Source: Microvirga massiliensis (lineage in GTDB: Bacteria > Pseudomonadota > Alphaproteobacteria > Rhizobiales > Beijerinckiaceae). Taken from it: a stretch of 64,000 nt of DNA. Shown here one piece after another: positions 37,987-53,529 of the stretch. Under the pieces are notes generated by a model that saw nothing but the letters and a program-made list of their open reading frames with translations, did no database searches and had not been told where the DNA came from. Made by a program: the position numbers and the translations under genes. The stretch's first letter is position 1, and the number at the start of each line of letters is the position of its first letter. The stretch lies in contig NZ_LN811365.1 in assembly GCF_001006805.1 (NCBI RefSeq), forward strand, positions 1-64,000, written 5' to 3'.

Positions 37987-38421
37987 TCAGGCGCCGCTGT
38001 CGAAGACTAGGCCGGCGGCCTCAATCCCCGCAGCCGCGGCGATCTCGTCGTTGTCGGACGTGTCACCCGACACGCCGACGGCGCCGAGGAGCGTTCCCTG
38101 GGCATCCTTGATGAGAACGCCGCCGGGGACCGGGACGAGTTCACCGCCGACCACGTGGCTCACGCTTGCGACGAAGTAGGGGCGATCGATCGCCATCTTG
38201 TGGAGAGCCCGGGAGCCGACACCGAGCGCCAGAGCGCCATAGGCCTTGGCCATCGCGATCTGCGACCGCTTGAGACTGGTGCCATCCTCGGCGAGGAGAC
38301 CGCGCAGCGCCCCGCGGGAATCGTAGACTGCTACGGCCAAGGGCTTGAACGACTTCTCGCGCCCTGCCTTGAGGGTCGCGGTCAGGATCGTCTGGGCCGC
38401 TTCGAGGCTGAGTTCTGGCAT
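37987..38421 (-). CDS. GlcG/HbpS-family heme-binding-like protein
   Basis: 144 residues. The fold family (PF03928) is recognised by LAVAVYDSRGALRGLLAEDG, then AMAKAYGALALGVGSR, then VPVPGGVLIKDAQGTLLGAVGVSGDTSDNDE. Members include the accessory GlcG and the redox/heme sensor HbpS; the biochemical role is often unknown. AAAGGAG lies 9 nt before the ATG at 38421. It is 89 nt downstream of puuD's end on the same strand, so it may be in the puuD transcript, but no link to urate is proven. Confidence 0.82.
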   Translation of the reverse strand: MPELSLEAAQTILTATLKAGREKSFKPLAVAVYDSRGALRGLLAEDGTSLKRSQIAMAKAYGALALGVGSRALHKMAIDRPYFVASVSHVVGGELVPVPGGVLIKDAQGTLLGAVGVSGDTSDNDEIAAAAGIEAAGLVFDSGA

Positions 38422-38510
38422 TGGGCACTTCTCCTTTGGGAAATCTGTGTGACTGTGCTGCTGCATCCTACCCGCGGGGGACGCTCCGTCTCCGTGCGGA
38501 GCCGGTTATC

Positions 38511-39734
38511 TCAGAATGTGTGCCGGATACGATCGCGAGCAGCCAGCCAATCCGCTACGGCGCGGCGCTCCTCGAGCGTCATCCCGGTCAGGTTCCCGGG
38601 TGGCATGGCGTGGGTCAGCACGCTCTGGATCCGGATGGATTCGGCGCGACGGGCGATTTCCTCGGATGTATCTAGCCTGACGCCTTTCGGCGCAGTTGCG
38701 ATACCCGGCCAGACGGGTTCTGCCGCATGGCACATCGAGCATCGGGATTGGACAGCCAGAAGAGCCTCCTCGGTCGGCAGCATCGCCGCCGGAACGGGCG
38801 CAGTGTTCGAGGCGAGGGCGACTGTCGGCCGCCCGATTATGGAAAGATAGATCGCAGCAACGATACAGGCCGCGGCTACGGCCCATGTCCACCAAGGGGA
38901 GCCCTTGTGGGCATGCCTGCTGTTGAAGAAATGGCGGATGACCGCACCCGCAACGACGATCAGCCCGACAATGGCGACCGAGTAGCGGGATGACCACGCA
39001 AGCGGGTAATGGTTCGACAGCATCAGGAAGACGACGGGAAGCGTCAGATAGTTGTTGTGTGTCGACCGCTGCTTTGCTTCCTTTCCGAGCTTCGGATCGG
39101 GCTGCCGGCCCGCGATCAGATCCGCGACGACCTTCCGCTGGTTCGGAATGATGACGACGAACACGCTGGCAGACATCCAGGTGGCGATCATCGCTCCGGT
39201 GTGGAGAAAGGCCGCCCGCGGCGACAGGACCTGCATGAAGCCCCATGCGGCCGCAAGGATCAGAATGAACACAGCCCCCGAAAGCGTGGCATCCCGATTG
39301 CCGAGCGGCGAGCGGCACAGGCCCTCATAGATCAGCCACGCGCCGGTGAGTCCGGAGATCCCGATGGCGGCCACTTGCCAGGGAAGCAGATCCATGGTCT
39401 CGTGGTCGATCGAGTACAGCTCCGCCTGCAGATAGTAGACCCAGACGAGCAGGAAAAATCCCGTCAACCAGGTGCTGTAGCTTTCCCACTTGAACCAGGT
39501 GAGCTCTCGCGGGAGTTCCGGCGGCGCAATGAGGTATTTGCGCATGTTGTAGAAGCCGCCGCCGTGGACCTGCCAGGCCTCGCCGCCGACCCCCTCGGGC
39601 AGGCCCTCACGCCTCCGCAAGCTCAGGTCGAGATGGATAAAATAGAATGAGGAGCCGATCCAGGCGATTGCGGTAACGACATGGGTCCACCGCAGAATCT
39701 GGCCGATCCATTCCGAGATCTGGGGGTCGAGCAT
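38511..39734 (-). CDS. puuD: Membrane urate hydroxylase with C-terminal cytochrome c domain
   Basis: 407 residues. It oxidises urate to 5-hydroxyisourate at the membrane and passes electrons to its own cytochrome c domain. About eight membrane segments of the urate oxidase N family (PF06181): ILRWTHVVTAIAWIGSSFYF at the N-terminus, GGGFYNMRKY, and STHNNYLTLPVVFLMLSNHYP. The C-terminal domain has a CSMCH heme motif (about residue 340) and a candidate Met ligand in HAMPPGNL. The ATG at 39734 follows GAGAGC closely; the longer frame is unlikely. The oppositely oriented uraH and puuE beyond the protease gene carry out the next steps. Confidence 0.92.
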   Translation of the reverse strand: MLDPQISEWIGQILRWTHVVTAIAWIGSSFYFIHLDLSLRRREGLPEGVGGEAWQVHGGGFYNMRKYLIAPPELPRELTWFKWESYSTWLTGFFLLVWVYYLQAELYSIDHETMDLLPWQVAAIGISGLTGAWLIYEGLCRSPLGNRDATLSGAVFILILAAAWGFMQVLSPRAAFLHTGAMIATWMSASVFVVIIPNQRKVVADLIAGRQPDPKLGKEAKQRSTHNNYLTLPVVFLMLSNHYPLAWSSRYSVAIVGLIVVAGAVIRHFFNSRHAHKGSPWWTWAVAAACIVAAIYLSIIGRPTVALASNTAPVPAAMLPTEEALLAVQSRCSMCHAAEPVWPGIATAPKGVRLDTSEEIARRAESIRIQSVLTHAMPPGNLTGMTLEERRAVADWLAARDRIRHTF

Positions 39735-39952
39735 GCTCTCAGTCTGGACGCCGTGAGGCTGGCGGGAAAGGGGGCGGAAGCTGTCTATCGCGGGCGGCCG
39801 GTACACGGTTTTTACATCCGGTTCAACAGAGCCGTCCCAGGCGTCGACAACTCGAGGCAGTCGATCTGTGCGAAGAAGATATCACCCTGGCCCAACCAAG
39901 CTCTATATCGGGCGTTGACGAGGGTGACCCGTCGACAACCCTGGAGCCCGCG

Positions 39953-41062
39953 GTGCGCTACCGCTTCACGAACATCGCTCTCGTCATTGTTCTGATCCTC
40001 CTCACCGCCTTCGTGGCCGAGCCTTACGTGGCGCGCTGGCTCTATTCGCAGGAGCAGCCCCGAGCGATCACCGCGCGCGGTGACCTCGCACCCATCGAAC
40101 AGACGACGATTGGAATATTCGAGCGAATCTCTCCCTCCGTCGTCCACGTCTTTGCACGTCCCGACCCGCGGCGTTTGCTCCAACCGTTTGGTGGTGAAGG
40201 GGGAGGGGGCGTGCAATCAGGTACGGGATTCCTCTGGGACGAAGCCGGGCATGTCGTCACGAACAATCACGTCATCGAGGGCGCGAGTCCCGTCACCGTG
40301 CGGTTTGCATCCGGAGAGGTCGTCCCTGCGGAGATCGTCGGAACCGCGCCGAACTACGATCTCGCGGTCCTGCGTCTCGGGAGAATGCGGGAACCTCCAC
40401 CGCCAGTTCCGATCGGCACCTCCGCGGATCTCAAGGTCGGACAGGAGACCTTTGCGATCGGGAATCCCTTCGGGCTCGACCAGACGCTGACCACCGGCAT
40501 CATCAGCGCCCTGCAGCGCCGCCTGCCCACCAGCGAGGGGCGAGAGATCGCAGATGTGATCCAGACGGACGCGGCCATCAATCCAGGGAACTCCGGCGGG
40601 CCGCTCCTCGATTCGGCAGGCCGCCTGATCGGGGTCAACACGGCGATCTTCTCCCCCTCCGGAGCATTCGCCGGAATCGGGTTCGCGATCCCGGTCGATG
40701 TCGTCAACCGCGTCGTTCCCCAACTCATCCGGAACGGACGCGTCCCGACACCCGGCATCGGGATCATCGCGGGCGAGGAGGCTGCGGCGGCGCAACTCGG
40801 CATTAAAGGCGTCATCGTGGTGCGAGTCGTACCGGGCTCGCCCGCCGAACGAGCCGGCCTGCGCGGGATCGACCCACGCACCGGCGCGCTCGGCGACATC
40901 ATCGTCGGCGTGAACGGAAAGGAGGTGAGCCGCCTCTCCGATCTGACCGCCGCTCTCGAGAAGGCCGATATTGGGAAGCCTGTCGAACTCACTATCGAGC
41001 GCAACGGCCGGACCATGACCACCCAGGTCGACGTCGCCGATATCGGGGAGGCTCGTCGGTGA
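39953..41062 (+). CDS. Membrane-anchored trypsin-like serine protease with PDZ domain (HtrA/DegS type)
   Basis: 369 residues. One N-terminal membrane segment (IALVIVLILLTAFVAEPYVA) anchors it facing the periplasm. The protease domain has the triad His in TNNHVIEG, Asp in NYDLAVLRL and Ser in NPGNSGGPLL. A single PDZ domain ends the protein (VVPGSPAERAGLRG). One PDZ and a membrane anchor resemble DegS-type regulatory proteases, but sigma-E genes are not nearby. The start is GTG at 39953, with GGAG about 10 nt upstream. It lies between the puuD and uraH-puuE arms, divergent from puuD. Confidence 0.9.
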   Translation: MRYRFTNIALVIVLILLTAFVAEPYVARWLYSQEQPRAITARGDLAPIEQTTIGIFERISPSVVHVFARPDPRRLLQPFGGEGGGGVQSGTGFLWDEAGHVVTNNHVIEGASPVTVRFASGEVVPAEIVGTAPNYDLAVLRLGRMREPPPPVPIGTSADLKVGQETFAIGNPFGLDQTLTTGIISALQRRLPTSEGREIADVIQTDAAINPGNSGGPLLDSAGRLIGVNTAIFSPSGAFAGIGFAIPVDVVNRVVPQLIRNGRVPTPGIGIIAGEEAAAAQLGIKGVIVVRVVPGSPAERAGLRGIDPRTGALGDIIVGVNGKEVSRLSDLTAALEKADIGKPVELTIERNGRTMTTQVDVADIGEARR

Positions 41063-41145
41063 AGAGGGGTAGGCTCGAGCTTCCGCGTCGGCCTTGACGG
41101 ATGACGTAACGGCGAGTTCATTCCGGCTCCCTTTCGGAGACCTTG

Positions 41146-41499
41146 ATGGGGCGTCTCTCTACACATGTTCTCGACACGGCGTCGGGCAGACCCGCTGCGG
41201 GCGTGCGCATCGAGCTGTTCCGGCTCGAGGGCGCGCAGCGCGAGCCGCTCCTGACCGCCACGACCAATGCCGACGGGCGCACCGAGGCGCCGCTGCTGGC
41301 GGGTGAGGCGTTCCGGGCCGGCACCTACGAGCTCGTGTTCCACGTCGGGGATTACTTTCGCGCCCGTGCCACCGCGACGGCGGACCCGCCCTTCCTCGAT
41401 CTGGTGCCGCTGCGCGTCGGCCTCGCGGAGCCCGACGGCCACTACCATGTTCCGCTCCTGGTCTCGCCCTGGAGCTATTCCACCTACCGGGGCAGCTGA
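41146..41499 (+). CDS. uraH: 5-hydroxyisourate hydrolase (transthyretin-like)
   Basis: 117 residues. It hydrolyses the PuuD product 5-hydroxyisourate to OHCU. Diagnostic residues: [14 protein letters not shown] at the N-terminus, an Arg in the [12 protein letters not shown] block, and the C-terminal tetrapeptide YRGS. GGAG lies 7 nt before the ATG at 41146. It is followed by puuE on the same strand (53-nt gap). Codons are almost all G/C-ending, unlike the adjoining protease gene, hinting at separate ancestry for uraH-puuE. Confidence 0.95.
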
Positions 41500-41552
41500 G
41501 ATGCCGGCCCGCCTCCACCCTCACCAGCCCGCTCCAACCCTGATCCCCTGAC

Positions 41553-42992
41553 ATGCCGCATTCCTATCCGCGCGACCTCGTGGGCTATGGCCGCACGCCC
41601 CCGCATCCCCGCTGGCCCGGCGACGCCCGGCTCTGCGTCCAGTTCGTGCTCAACTACGAGGAGGGCGGGGAGAACAGCATCCTGCACGGCGACCGCGCCT
41701 CCGAGGCCTTCCTGTCCGAGATCGTCGGCGCCCAGCCCTGGCCGGGCCAGCGTCACATGAACATGGAGTCGCTCTACGAATACGGCTCCCGCGTCGGCTT
41801 CTGGCGGCTGTGGCGGCTGTTCACGGAGCGCTCGCTGCCCGTCACGGTCTTTGGCGTCGCGAGTGCGCTCCAGCGCAACCCGCACGCCGTGGCGGCCATG
41901 CAGGAAGCCGGCTGGGAGATCGCCAGCCACGGCCTGAAATGGATCGACTACAAGGACTTCTCGTCCGACGAGGAGCGCGCCCATCTCCACGAGGCGATCC
42001 GCCTCCACACCGAGGTCACGGGCGAGCGGCCGCGCGGCTTCTATCTCGGGCGCACCTCCGAGCACACGCTGCGGCTCGTCCAGGAGGAGGGCGGCTTTCT
42101 CTACTCAGCCGATTCCTATGCCGACGAGCTGCCCTACTGGGTCGGTGGGCCCACTGGGCCGCAGCTGATCGTGCCCTACACGTTGGATGCCAACGACATG
42201 CGCTTTGCGACCCCGCAGGGCTTCAACTCAGGCGACCAGTTCTTCGGCTATCTCAAGGACTCGTTCGATCTCCTCTATGCCGAGGGCGAGCGCGCCCCCA
42301 AGCTGCTGTCGGTGGGCCTGCATGGCCGGCTCGTCGGCCGGCCCGGGCGGGCGGCGGCGCTGGCGCGCTTTCTCGATTACGTGCTCGCGCACGAGCGGGT
42401 CTGGGTGGCGCGGCGGATCGACATCGCCCGGCACTGGCTCCGCGAACACCCGCCCGCGGGGCTCAAGCCCAGCACCATGAGCCGGGCGCTGTTCGGGGAG
42501 CTCTTCGGGGACGTGTTCGAGCACTCGCCCTGGCTCGCCGAGCGGGTGCATGCCGCGGGGCTGACGGCGGCGCAGGACTCGGCCGAGGGCCTGCACGCCG
42601 CGCTGGTCGCGGCGCTCGCGGGAGCGACCCGCGCGCAGAAGCTCGAACTCATCCGCGCGCATCCGGATCTCGCGGGGCGGCTGGAACTGCGGGAGCTGAC
42701 GGCGGATTCGCGGGCCGAGCAGAGCGGGGCGGGCCTGGCCGATCTCGATGAGGCGGAACGCGACCGCTTTCTCGCGCTCAACGCGCGTTATCGCGAGCGG
42801 TTCGGGTTTCCGTTCATCCTGGCCGTGCGGGGGCGCGCCAAGGAGGAGATCCTGGCCGCCTTCGAGGCGCGCCTCGCGCACGAGCCCGAGCAGGAATTCG
42901 CCACCGCGCTCGCCGAAATCGCACACATCGCCCGCCTGCGCCTCAACGACAGACTGCCGTCCCTGCCTAGTACCGCTGCCGCGACCGAGTGA
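41553..42992 (+). CDS. puuE: Fusion of PuuE-type allantoinase and OHCU decarboxylase
   Basis: 479 residues. The first part (about 1-310) is a polysaccharide-deacetylase-fold, cofactor-independent allantoinase (PRDLVGYGRTPPHPRWPG, NYEEGGENSILHGD, GWEIASHGLKWIDY). The second part (about 320-470) is an OHCU decarboxylase (LIRAHPDLAGRL, LTADSRAEQSGAGL, RYRERFGFPFILAVRG). The one polypeptide therefore converts OHCU to S-allantoin and then to allantoate. With PuuD and UraH it completes urate to allantoate. The same fusion is known in other Proteobacteria. The gene is much richer in GC than its surroundings (for example 42301-42360 is 50 G/C of 60). Confidence 0.95.
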   Translation: MPHSYPRDLVGYGRTPPHPRWPGDARLCVQFVLNYEEGGENSILHGDRASEAFLSEIVGAQPWPGQRHMNMESLYEYGSRVGFWRLWRLFTERSLPVTVFGVASALQRNPHAVAAMQEAGWEIASHGLKWIDYKDFSSDEERAHLHEAIRLHTEVTGERPRGFYLGRTSEHTLRLVQEEGGFLYSADSYADELPYWVGGPTGPQLIVPYTLDANDMRFATPQGFNSGDQFFGYLKDSFDLLYAEGERAPKLLSVGLHGRLVGRPGRAAALARFLDYVLAHERVWVARRIDIARHWLREHPPAGLKPSTMSRALFGELFGDVFEHSPWLAERVHAAGLTAAQDSAEGLHAALVAALAGATRAQKLELIRAHPDLAGRLELRELTADSRAEQSGAGLADLDEAERDRFLALNARYRERFGFPFILAVRGRAKEEILAAFEARLAHEPEQEFATALAEIAHIARLRLNDRLPSLPSTAAATE

Positions 42993-42999
42993 GGAACTC

Positions 43000-43311
43000 A
43001 TGCCAGCACCAGTAGTCGATCTCGATCGAAACGATGTGAAAGCTGCCCTCGCCTCCGGGAACGGTACGATCATCGATGTTCGCGAGCCCGCCGAATTCGC
43101 GGCCGGCCACATTCCGGGCTCCGTGAACATGCCCCTCTCGGAGTTCGATCCGCATGCCCTGCCGGAAGGCCGTGTCATTCTCTCTTGTGCTGCCGGTATC
43201 CGCTCGGAGCGTGCTGCACTTCTCGCTCAAGCCGCGGGCCGGGACGTCCGCGAACATTACAAGGGCGGCTTCAAGGATTGGATTGGGGCCGGAGAGGTCG
43301 TCGAATGGTGA
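43000..43311 (+). CDS. Single-domain rhodanese-like sulfurtransferase
   Basis: 103 residues. A rhodanese fold with VREPAEFAAGHIPGSVNMPL and the active-site loop CAAGIRSERA, where the Cys carries persulfide sulfur. It starts 7 nt after puuE's stop with GAGGAACTC before the ATG, so it may be co-transcribed, but its base composition is that of the normal background rather than of puuE. The acceptor is unknown. Confidence 0.9.
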   Translation: MPAPVVDLDRNDVKAALASGNGTIIDVREPAEFAAGHIPGSVNMPLSEFDPHALPEGRVILSCAAGIRSERAALLAQAAGRDVREHYKGGFKDWIGAGEVVEW

Positions 43312-43574: not shown

Positions 43575-44006
43575 ATGATTCGTGCGGTGTTGGTAGTGGG
43601 CGCACTGGCTTTGGGCGTCACGTCGGTGGTTGCAGAGGGGAATGTGATCGAGCAGCGTCAGAGCCTCATGAAGGATCTCAGCGCCAAGGCACGGCCGGTG
43701 ACCGCTGCCCTTCGAGGGCAGGCTCCCTTCGATCTCGGACAGGTACAGACGGCGCTTCGGACCTACTCGGAACACGCGAAAGTGCTTCCGACAATGTTTC
43801 CGGAGAACTCGAAGTCCGGCAAGACGGACGCGCTGCCCACAGTCTGGGAGAACAAGTCGGATTTCGAGGCACGCTTCGCGAAGCTCGCCGCCGATGCTCA
43901 GACGGCCCTCGCGACCGTGAAGGACGAGGAGAGTTTCAAGGCCGAGTTTCCGAAGGTCATGAAGAACTGCGGCGGCTGCCACGAAAAGTTCCGGAAACCG
44001 AGCTGA
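43575..44006 (+). CDS. Cytochrome c-prime family protein
   Basis: 143 residues. A signal peptide (MIRAVLVVGALALGVTSVVA) leads to a four-helix-type chain ending in the heme motif CGGCHEKFRKP, at the C-terminus as in cytochrome c-prime. QRQSLMKDLSAKARPV is the typical first helix. Periplasmic; such proteins bind NO or take part in electron transfer. AGGGAGAG precedes the ATG. Gap 43312-43574 to its left shows nothing recognisable. Confidence 0.9.
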   Translation: MIRAVLVVGALALGVTSVVAEGNVIEQRQSLMKDLSAKARPVTAALRGQAPFDLGQVQTALRTYSEHAKVLPTMFPENSKSGKTDALPTVWENKSDFEARFAKLAADAQTALATVKDEESFKAEFPKVMKNCGGCHEKFRKPS

Positions 44007-44137: not shown

Positions 44138-45088
44138 ATGAACCGTTTACGCTCAATTCTCCTGGCGCTTTTGGGACTGGTCATCGCTGGGGCAGCCGTC
44201 TTCTACCTGCTGACCGAACCGGCCCTTTATCGGCTCGTGCGCGGAGAGCAGAGTGTTGCAGGCGACCATGTCGCGAATCTCGAGAACGGACGCCTTCTCT
44301 TCAACGCGGGAGGATGTTCCTCCTGTCACGCGACGCCCGACCAGGATGATCGCACGAGGCTCGGTGGCGGATTGGCCTTGAAGTCGCCATTCGGCACTTT
44401 CCATGTGCCGAACATCTCGCCCCATCCTCGCGACGGCATCGGTGGATGGAGCGTCACGGATTTCGTAAGAGCGATGCGTGAGGGGACGGCGCCCGACGGG
44501 AAGCATCTATATCCGTCTTTTCCATACACGTCCTATCAGCGCATGAGGACAACGGATATCGCGGATCTCTTTGCCTATCTGAAGAGCCTCACGCCGGTCG
44601 AAGGCCGTGTGCGGGATCACGAACTCTCCTTTCCATACAACATCCGCCGCGGCCTCGGCCTCTGGAAACTGGCATTTCTCGATGGCAACGTTTTCAGGCC
44701 GGACCCGAACCGTGACGAACCGTGGAATCGCGGAGCCTATCTCGTAGAGGGGCCGGGACATTGTGCGGAGTGCCATAGTCCACGGAACGCTTTGGGGGCG
44801 ATCATTTCCGAGCGGCGGTTTGCGGGAGCGCGGGAGCCGGACGGAAAGGACTGGGTGCCGAACATCACGCCTCATCCGACTGGGACGGGAGGTTGGACGC
44901 TCGAAGACTTCGAGGTTCTGCTGAAGACGGGCGATACCCCGAACTTCGTCGATGTCGGCGGCCTGATGCGCGCGGTCGTGCGGAACACCGCAGCCCTTCC
45001 GGAATCCGATCGCACGGCGATGGGCGAGTACCTTCTGACGCTGCCTCCGCGCGAGGGACGCCCGCCCGCAGCCACGAATTCGGAGTGA
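44138..45088 (+). CDS. Membrane-anchored diheme cytochrome c
   Basis: 316 residues. An N-terminal membrane segment (ILLALLGLVIAGAAVFYLL) is followed by two cytochrome c domains with heme motifs CSSCH (about residue 60) and CAECH (about residue 210). Each is followed by a NISPHP/NITPHP block with GGWSVTDF/GGWTLEDF, typical of the diheme cytochrome c subunits that accept electrons from alcohol, aldehyde or gluconate dehydrogenases. No such dehydrogenase is adjacent. It might take electrons from PuuD or pair with the cytochrome c-prime, but that is only proximity. GAGAGAT lies before the ATG. Confidence 0.9.
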   Translation: MNRLRSILLALLGLVIAGAAVFYLLTEPALYRLVRGEQSVAGDHVANLENGRLLFNAGGCSSCHATPDQDDRTRLGGGLALKSPFGTFHVPNISPHPRDGIGGWSVTDFVRAMREGTAPDGKHLYPSFPYTSYQRMRTTDIADLFAYLKSLTPVEGRVRDHELSFPYNIRRGLGLWKLAFLDGNVFRPDPNRDEPWNRGAYLVEGPGHCAECHSPRNALGAIISERRFAGAREPDGKDWVPNITPHPTGTGGWTLEDFEVLLKTGDTPNFVDVGGLMRAVVRNTAALPESDRTAMGEYLLTLPPREGRPPAATNSE

Positions 45089-52483: not shown

Positions 52484-53529
52484 TGCGGCTGCTGATCGCA
52501 ACCGATGCCTGGCATCCGCAGGTCAACGGCGTCGTGCGCTCGCTCGAACACATGGCAGAAGAATCACGCCATTTCGGAGTCGAGGTGGTTTTTCTGACGC
52601 CGGAGCGCTTCCGGTCCTTTGCATTACCGACCTATCGCGAAATCCGCCTTTCGCTCATTTCGCGCGCAATGGTTATCCGCGAATTCGAGAGAATACAGCC
52701 GGAGCATGTGCATATCGCGACGGAGGGCCCGATCGGATTTGCGGCTCGCCGCGCGTGCCTGGGGCAGGGACGGAGCTTTACGACGAGCTATCACACCCGA
52801 TTCCCCGAATATGTGCGCATGAGGGCACCGATCCCGGAGAGCTGGATCTACGCGTTCCTCCGCCGCTTCCACAATGCAGGCCAGGCAACTCTAGTCAGCA
52901 CCGTGTCGCTCGAGCGCGAATTGCACGAACGCGGTTTCCGGAACATCAGGCTCTGGCCGAGAGGTGTCGACACGAACCTGTTCAGGCCCCGCAAGGAGAA
53001 AGTCCTGGACCTCCCGGGGCCGATTTTTCTTTTCGTTGGTCGGCTCGCCGTCGAAAAGAATCTGGAGGCCTTTCTTGCCCTCGACCTGCCCGGGACCAAG
53101 GTCGTCGTCGGTAATGGGCCTGCGCGCCCACGGCTCGAGGCGCAGTTCCCGCAAGCCTGCTTCCTCGGGGCCCGTTCCGGAGAGGTTCTCGCGGAAATCT
53201 ACGCTTCGGCCGACGTCTTCGTCTTTCCGAGCCTTACCGATACGTTCGGAATCGTGCTACTCGAGGGGCTCGCATCCGGGCTTCCCATCGCCGCTTTTCC
53301 CGTTGCGGGCCCCACCGATGTCATTGGCTCGTCCGGTTGCGGGATTCTCTCACCGGATCTCCGGGAAGCTGCCCTTGGTGCATTGGCAATTCCGAAGGAA
53401 AGGTGCCGCGCCTTTGCGGAAACCTTCACCTGGCGAGAGAGTGCCCGCCAGTTCTTTGCGAATATCAAGATCGCTCACGAGGCGGCAGGAGTGCATGCGC
53501 CGCAGAGCGGTCCAGCCACGATCAGGTAA
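52483..53529 (+). CDS. GT4-family glycosyltransferase, candidate diacylglycerol glycosyltransferase
   Basis: 348 residues. A GT-B fold: N-terminal DAWHPQVNGVVRSL with the acceptor-side FLTPERFRSF, then LWPRGVDTNLFRP and the C-terminal donor-binding block ADVFVFPSLTDTFGIVLLEGLASG. It has the appearance of enzymes that add a sugar to a lipid (SQD2/MgtA/Agt relatives). The ATG overlaps the upstream stop (TAATG), so the pair is co-translated. Its product would be a glycolipid made from the diacylglycerol released by the neighbour. The donor sugar is unknown. Confidence 0.85.
   Translation: MRLLIATDAWHPQVNGVVRSLEHMAEESRHFGVEVVFLTPERFRSFALPTYREIRLSLISRAMVIREFERIQPEHVHIATEGPIGFAARRACLGQGRSFTTSYHTRFPEYVRMRAPIPESWIYAFLRRFHNAGQATLVSTVSLERELHERGFRNIRLWPRGVDTNLFRPRKEKVLDLPGPIFLFVGRLAVEKNLEAFLALDLPGTKVVVGNGPARPRLEAQFPQACFLGARSGEVLAEIYASADVFVFPSLTDTFGIVLLEGLASGLPIAAFPVAGPTDVIGSSGCGILSPDLREAALGALAIPKERCRAFAETFTWRESARQFFANIKIAHEAAGVHAPQSGPATIR

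Follow-up and report, generated by a model that had tools for sequence, protein, structure and literature searches.

Related bacteria are known to replace genes by their orthologs through homologous recombination (xenologous, or orthologous, gene replacement), the gene order being left unchanged. The locus described here belongs to the uric-acid catabolic neighbourhoods that contain puuD, whose product has been described as an integral-membrane cytochrome c urate oxidase (PMC4562309). Among urate loci with PuuD, several from Bosea and 21 named ones from Microvirga have puuD beside uraH and puuE-uraD. The same association was found in the window, by which we mean the whole 64-kb stretch of Microvirga massiliensis DNA that was analysed. 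Unlike the 21 named Microvirga loci, the window and genome G098 (a sister genus) have a gene for an HtrA-type serine protease separating puuD and uraH. The features of the locus are collected in Table 1. The reading that best fits the data presented below, to which we give a probability of about 0.6, is that uraH and puuE-uraD were overwritten in place by orthologs from an unsampled relative of higher GC content.

Table 1. Features of the urate locus, with positions in the window.
Feature	Position	Strand	Basis or remark
HbpS-like protein	37987..38466	-	PF03928
puuD-like membrane urate oxidase (predicted)	38511..39806	-	PF06181 432.9 bits; CSMCH near C-terminus
HtrA-type serine protease	39953..41062	+	PF13365, PF13180
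uraH, 5-hydroxyisourate hydrolase (predicted)	41146..41499	+	TIGR02962 135.3 bits, equivalog cut-off 87.45
GC3-rich block, maximum-likelihood extent	41197..42948		change-point fit
non-coding spacer, 53 bp, inside block	41500..41552		GC 0.717
puuE-uraD fusion, 479 aa	41553..42992	+	TIGR03212 + TIGR03164
rhodanese-domain protein	43000..43311	+	PF00581; GC3 0.650
cytochrome c'	43575..44006	+	PF01322
cytochrome c	44138..45088	+	PF00034

The uraH gene begins at an ATG, and its product matches positions 2-113 of the 113 of the TIGR02962 profile. The following gene had been called puuE in the first-pass annotation, which gave the limits of both genes correctly; it codes for a PuuE-UraD fusion (the gene is referred to as puuE below), with an allantoinase (PuuE) part at residues 5-300 (TIGR03212, 539.5 bits; domain cut-off 424.6) and an OHCU decarboxylase (UraD) part at residues 309-466 (TIGR03164, 191.3 bits; domain cut-off 96.25). 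The C-terminus of the fusion after RLPSL (42966-42992) is unlike that of the 24 relatives compared. A second PuuE homologue is encoded in the genome (C26:54263-55156); it shows 57% identity over residues 5-302, lacks a UraD part and has a GC3 of 0.69. The translation of the puuD-like gene contains a CSMCH motif, which we take to be a haem-binding pattern. Judging from the family matches and the known chemistry of the pathway, the puuD product would make 5-hydroxyisourate, the uraH product would open the ring of this compound, and the UraD and PuuE parts would lead to allantoin and then to allantoate; together, the genes of the window should take urate to allantoate.

Analysis of base composition placed uraH (GC3 0.864) and puuE (GC3 0.898) as the top two among 48 ORFs of the window (mean 0.759, sd 0.059; the ORFs come from a rough ORF caller and some are antisense). 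This confirmed the first-pass claim that the pair is richer in GC than its neighbours. The sample counts given there were exact (50 G/C in 42301-42360 and 33 in 52621-52680, out of 60 each), the third positions said to be nearly all G or C amounted to about 90% when measured, and the flanking genes said to look normal did so, with GC3 values of 0.772 for the protease and 0.650 for the rhodanese gene. With puuD (0.787), these flank genes lie at about or below 0.762, the mean over 330 sampled ORFs of the genome, and are not GC-rich. The 1847 bp from 41146 to 42992 have a GC content of 70.5%, and the best stretch of this length outside 41.0-43.1 kb reached 67.6% (mean 63.8, sd 1.5; 10-base steps).

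Two change points, fitted over 1888 codons from seven genes, were used to determine the extent of the GC3-rich block; the fit gained 35.0 lnL, and the best of 200 permutations gained 12.8. Within 2 lnL, the borders span 41167-41227 (5') and 42867-42972 (3'), and both fitted borders fall within coding sequences, the 5' one in uraH and the 3' one in puuE. At the 5' border, 9 of the 16 codons 2-17 of uraH end in G or C versus 494 of 548 in the core of the block (Fisher p 0.0006), corresponding to a GC3 of 0.56 for this start and 0.91 for the remaining codons of the gene. A general tendency of uraH to begin with A/T-ending codons was considered and not seen on average in 24 relatives, in which GC3 at the start was on average 0.05 above the rest (sd 0.09). 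The uraH start of G098 dips too (0.69 vs 0.86), by about half of the drop in the window; the dip in the window exceeds that of all 24 relatives, G098 being the closest. The 3' border is weak: 10 of the last 14 puuE codons end in G or C (Fisher p 0.047), and the resulting GC3 of 0.71 lies inside the range of the relatives over the same codons (0.64-1.00). The spacer within the block is also GC-rich (Table 1), and four other nearby intergenic stretches (83-263 bp) have GC contents of 0.589-0.679; the puuE-rhodanese gap (7 bp, GC 0.571) was too short to be counted among them.

That the pair could be intrinsically GC-rich in its family, with no event behind it, was examined by comparison with orthologous loci, and we give this reading almost no credit. 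The GC3 of puuE in the window does lie within the 0.716-0.940 of 23 Microvirga orthologs; the local excess, however, does not follow the pattern of the relatives. Relative to the mean of six flank genes, puuE stood at +0.139 in the window and uraH at +0.104; the 21 named Microvirga loci averaged +0.013 for puuE (sd 0.025, max +0.045) and -0.036 for uraH (sd 0.034, max +0.015). With three flank genes, the excess in the window was +0.162 for puuE and +0.128 for uraH; in 36 other genus loci, puuE averaged +0.028 (sd 0.026, max +0.106) and uraH reached at most +0.063 (36 of 37 loci were used, L101 being dropped for having fewer than three flanks). The named loci and the other genus loci probably share species, so that the two counts are not independent. 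Similar GC in all relatives, which the first-pass annotation had named as evidence against its view, was not what we found, since no locus among the 21 named or the 36 other ones had as large a local excess. Pairing with orthologs (17 syntenic ORFs, 15-23 relatives each) gave a dGC12 of +0.067/+0.056 and a dGC3 of +0.070/+0.062 for the pair, and the 15 other syntenic ORFs stayed at or below +0.035 and +0.025, respectively.

The composition of the pair was also reflected in its amino acids. Compared with 23 Microvirga loci (the 21 named ones plus L209 and L210), puuE showed a GC12 of 0.608 vs 0.549±0.010 (z +5.8), a FYMINK fraction of 0.150 vs 0.206 (z -6.4) and a GARP fraction of 0.370 vs 0.315 (z +5.5), and the GC12 of uraH was at z +4.7. 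The puuE means of six Methylobacterium-type loci (GC12 0.608, FYMINK 0.156, GARP 0.378) are close to the values of the window. GC12 in the other seven genes of the comparison ranged from z -1.6 to z +3.1, with puuD highest. K/(K+R) was low in the SBP gene, puuD, the cytochrome c' gene and gyrB (z about -4 vs Microvirga), and FYMINK departed downwards in puuD (z -3.7) and upwards in the protease (z +4.7). Over 80 named loci, the GC12 of puuE tracks the GC of the locus (r 0.87); the value of the window predicts a source GC of 0.713 (residual sd 0.018) vs 0.640 observed at the window, and its residual given locus GC ranked 1 of 81 (z 4.6). This high-GC imprint fits a long residence of the pair in a genome of about 71% GC.

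The block is not extreme in the genome as a whole, which is compositionally patchy: 20 sampled 20-kb stretches ranged from 48.8 to 66.5% GC, 15 of the 330 ORFs sampled, among them puuE, had a GC3 of at least 0.89, and of 36320 overlapping stretches of 1847 bp that were sampled, 1154 (3.2%), located in 5 of 20 loci, were as GC-rich as the block. Of the sampled stretches, L137 (C1:200001-220000) has the highest mean GC3; it contains a fabF-like gene with a GC3 of 0.97 (0.966) and a fabI-like gene with one of 0.92. These two genes, picked for lying in that stretch, are above 18-19 Microvirga orthologs in GC3 (by 0.055-0.057) and in GC12 (by 0.020-0.025) (L290 and L292 were excluded from the ortholog means of this stretch). 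A gene beside them (L137:11407-12921) gave differences as large as those of the pair (dGC12 +0.067, dGC3 +0.087), calculated on two relatives only, at 54% identity. Since patches just as rich in GC occur elsewhere in this genome, a GC peak is best judged against orthologs.

The GC3 of fabF, together with that of rpoB (0.858) and gyrB (0.849), would suit a reversed polarity, according to which the lineage was once GC-rich, the pair is its native remnant and the flanks have drifted, or have been exchanged, towards lower-GC Microvirga DNA. The flanks of the window are indeed below their orthologs in GC3 (mean -0.05 over 15 ORFs). However, the GC3 of the flanks (0.759) equals the sampled genome mean, their GC12 is mostly ordinary, and at locus L018 the flanks have a similar GC3 (0.758), yet puuE lies 0.042 below them; we therefore find this polarity very doubtful.

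With respect to gene order, the 21 named Microvirga loci and G098 share the neighbourhood of the pair. The gene for the HbpS-like protein adjoins puuD in all of them, and the cytochrome c' and cytochrome c genes are syntenic in the 21 named loci. In the genus, puuE was matched in 47 of 48 genomes (own included; E <= 1e-120), with a near full-length match in 46; the match in G056 covered residues 184-473 only, and G046 gave none. A new insertion or island was rejected, the locus being syntenic in these relatives. A tRNA search of the window gave none, a search of 40900-43300 revealed no long repeats at the borders (the longest was 37 nt at 70%, the rest being short or imperfect), and a Pfam scan of 16 window proteins detected no integrase and no transposase. 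The absence of tRNA genes and long repeats is expected for homologous exchange and lends it no positive support. The first-pass annotation had proposed acquisition of the pair from a higher-GC relative. A higher-GC history of the pair is upheld by its composition, which points to a source of about 71% GC, and a new acquisition is not, the pair being syntenic in relatives; replacement in place is therefore the likely event.

The order of genes in G098 is HbpS, puuD, HtrA, uraH, puuE, a LysM-like gene (named by eye) and rhodanese. Because G098 has the same arrangement as the window, the position of the HtrA gene between puuD and uraH is probably ancestral. This gene is absent from this position in the 21 named Microvirga loci. 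It also lies upstream of uraH, adjacent to it, in L036, where it is split over two frames (L036 is a MAG named Microvirga that was left out of the 21 loci for its different neighbourhood). Among 24 other genus genomes, the protease was found at E 1e-60 in 16, always away from puuE (more than 1 Mb distant or on a different contig), and was not found at this threshold in the other 8. The HtrA gene was rejected as a part of the foreign block, its GC3 and GC12 not being raised and its place being the same in G098. The window lacks the LysM-like gene between puuE and rhodanese, the best match in the genome being on contig C4 (80% identity); judged by gap length, this gene is also missing in L036, L089, L090 and L117.

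The host genome (9.17 Mb, 50 contigs) represents a deep branch, with an average rpoB identity of 91.2% to 20 Microvirga and of 90.4% to G098. In a tree of rpoB and gyrB (27 of 28 genomes; G237 was left out for its partial rpoB), the grouping of the window with 20 Microvirga was not rejected (p-AU 0.67). The gene-tree comparison suggested in the first-pass annotation was run on puuE (36 rows), and it neither showed a transfer nor rejected vertical descent. The window came out near the base of Microvirga, weakly placed; holding it with Microvirga cost 0.47 lnL (p-AU 0.37), and holding it with Methylobacterium, G237, L036 or G098 alone gave p-AU values of 0.30, 0.27, 0.083 and 0.08, respectively. 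Holding it with G098 and L036 together fits worse (p-AU 0.035). In quick trees of single genes, the window was basal to Microvirga for puuE and puuD and unplaced for uraH, and no starred set included it. Among 11 genes compared for identity (L292, G135 and outgroups left out), puuE was the sole one in which the window was significantly further from Microvirga than G098 (-3.8 points; 95% -6.7 to -1.1); this is the only phylogenetic sign that points to a transfer. Significant differences in the opposite direction were seen for the HbpS-like gene, cytochrome c', gyrB and fabI, and the remaining six, uraH included, showed no significant difference. Among the matches listed, the nearest named genomes for puuE were Microvirga. 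No donor above 80% identity, the level of the best matches, was found among the matches listed from named genomes or in 48 genus, 298 family and 397 order genomes, and the best match in a plasmid search was at 64% identity, giving no donor. Methylobacterium as donor is neither rejected nor supported by its p-AU.

These gene trees are compatible with the main rival to replacement, namely vertical descent with a local rise of GC in situ and with no foreign DNA; the rise would come from codon selection, or else from GC-biased gene conversion where the locus recombines. Such conversion has been proposed to occur in bacteria (PMC4450053), and fabF and fabI of the same genome are likewise above their orthologs in GC3. 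We nevertheless hold such a rise to be rather unlikely. Codon choice alone does not explain the block, because the non-coding spacer has a GC content of 0.717 and the amino acids are shifted. The fourfold sites of the block (0.52 C, 0.45 G) are not more C-biased than those of rpoB of the same genome (0.49 C, 0.39 G). A rise in situ would also need borders 17 codons into uraH and some 14 codons short of the end of puuE, and we know of no process that places borders in this way. It seems quite improbable that the block marks biased gene conversion at a recombination hot spot, as a local process in situ that raises GC between borders defined to within tens of bases; if true, this process would be strong enough to alter the amino acids of two enzymes.

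In the replacement that we favour, the uric-acid catabolic neighbourhood of the window is an old one. A stretch of about 1.75 kb within it, covering almost the whole of uraH and puuE-uraD, would have given way to its orthologous counterpart by homologous recombination, the junctions lying close to the start of uraH and the end of puuE, and the donor may have been a Methylobacteriaceae-like lineage, so far unsampled, with a GC content of about 71%. We infer this recombination, its direction and its donor lineage from the composition block and its borders, the synteny and the amino-acid imprint observed. A replacement of this kind is invisible to presence/absence scans, the genes being present in nearly all relatives; it is betrayed by composition and, weakly, by identity. 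Neither the enzymes nor this kind of event is new. The locus differs from clear cases of xenologous replacement in that the donor was not found and the conflict among trees is weak. It resembles them in that the change is in place with the neighbourhood kept, the composition is foreign to both the surroundings and the pattern of the orthologs, the gene order is that of the relatives, and the fitted borders lie inside genes.
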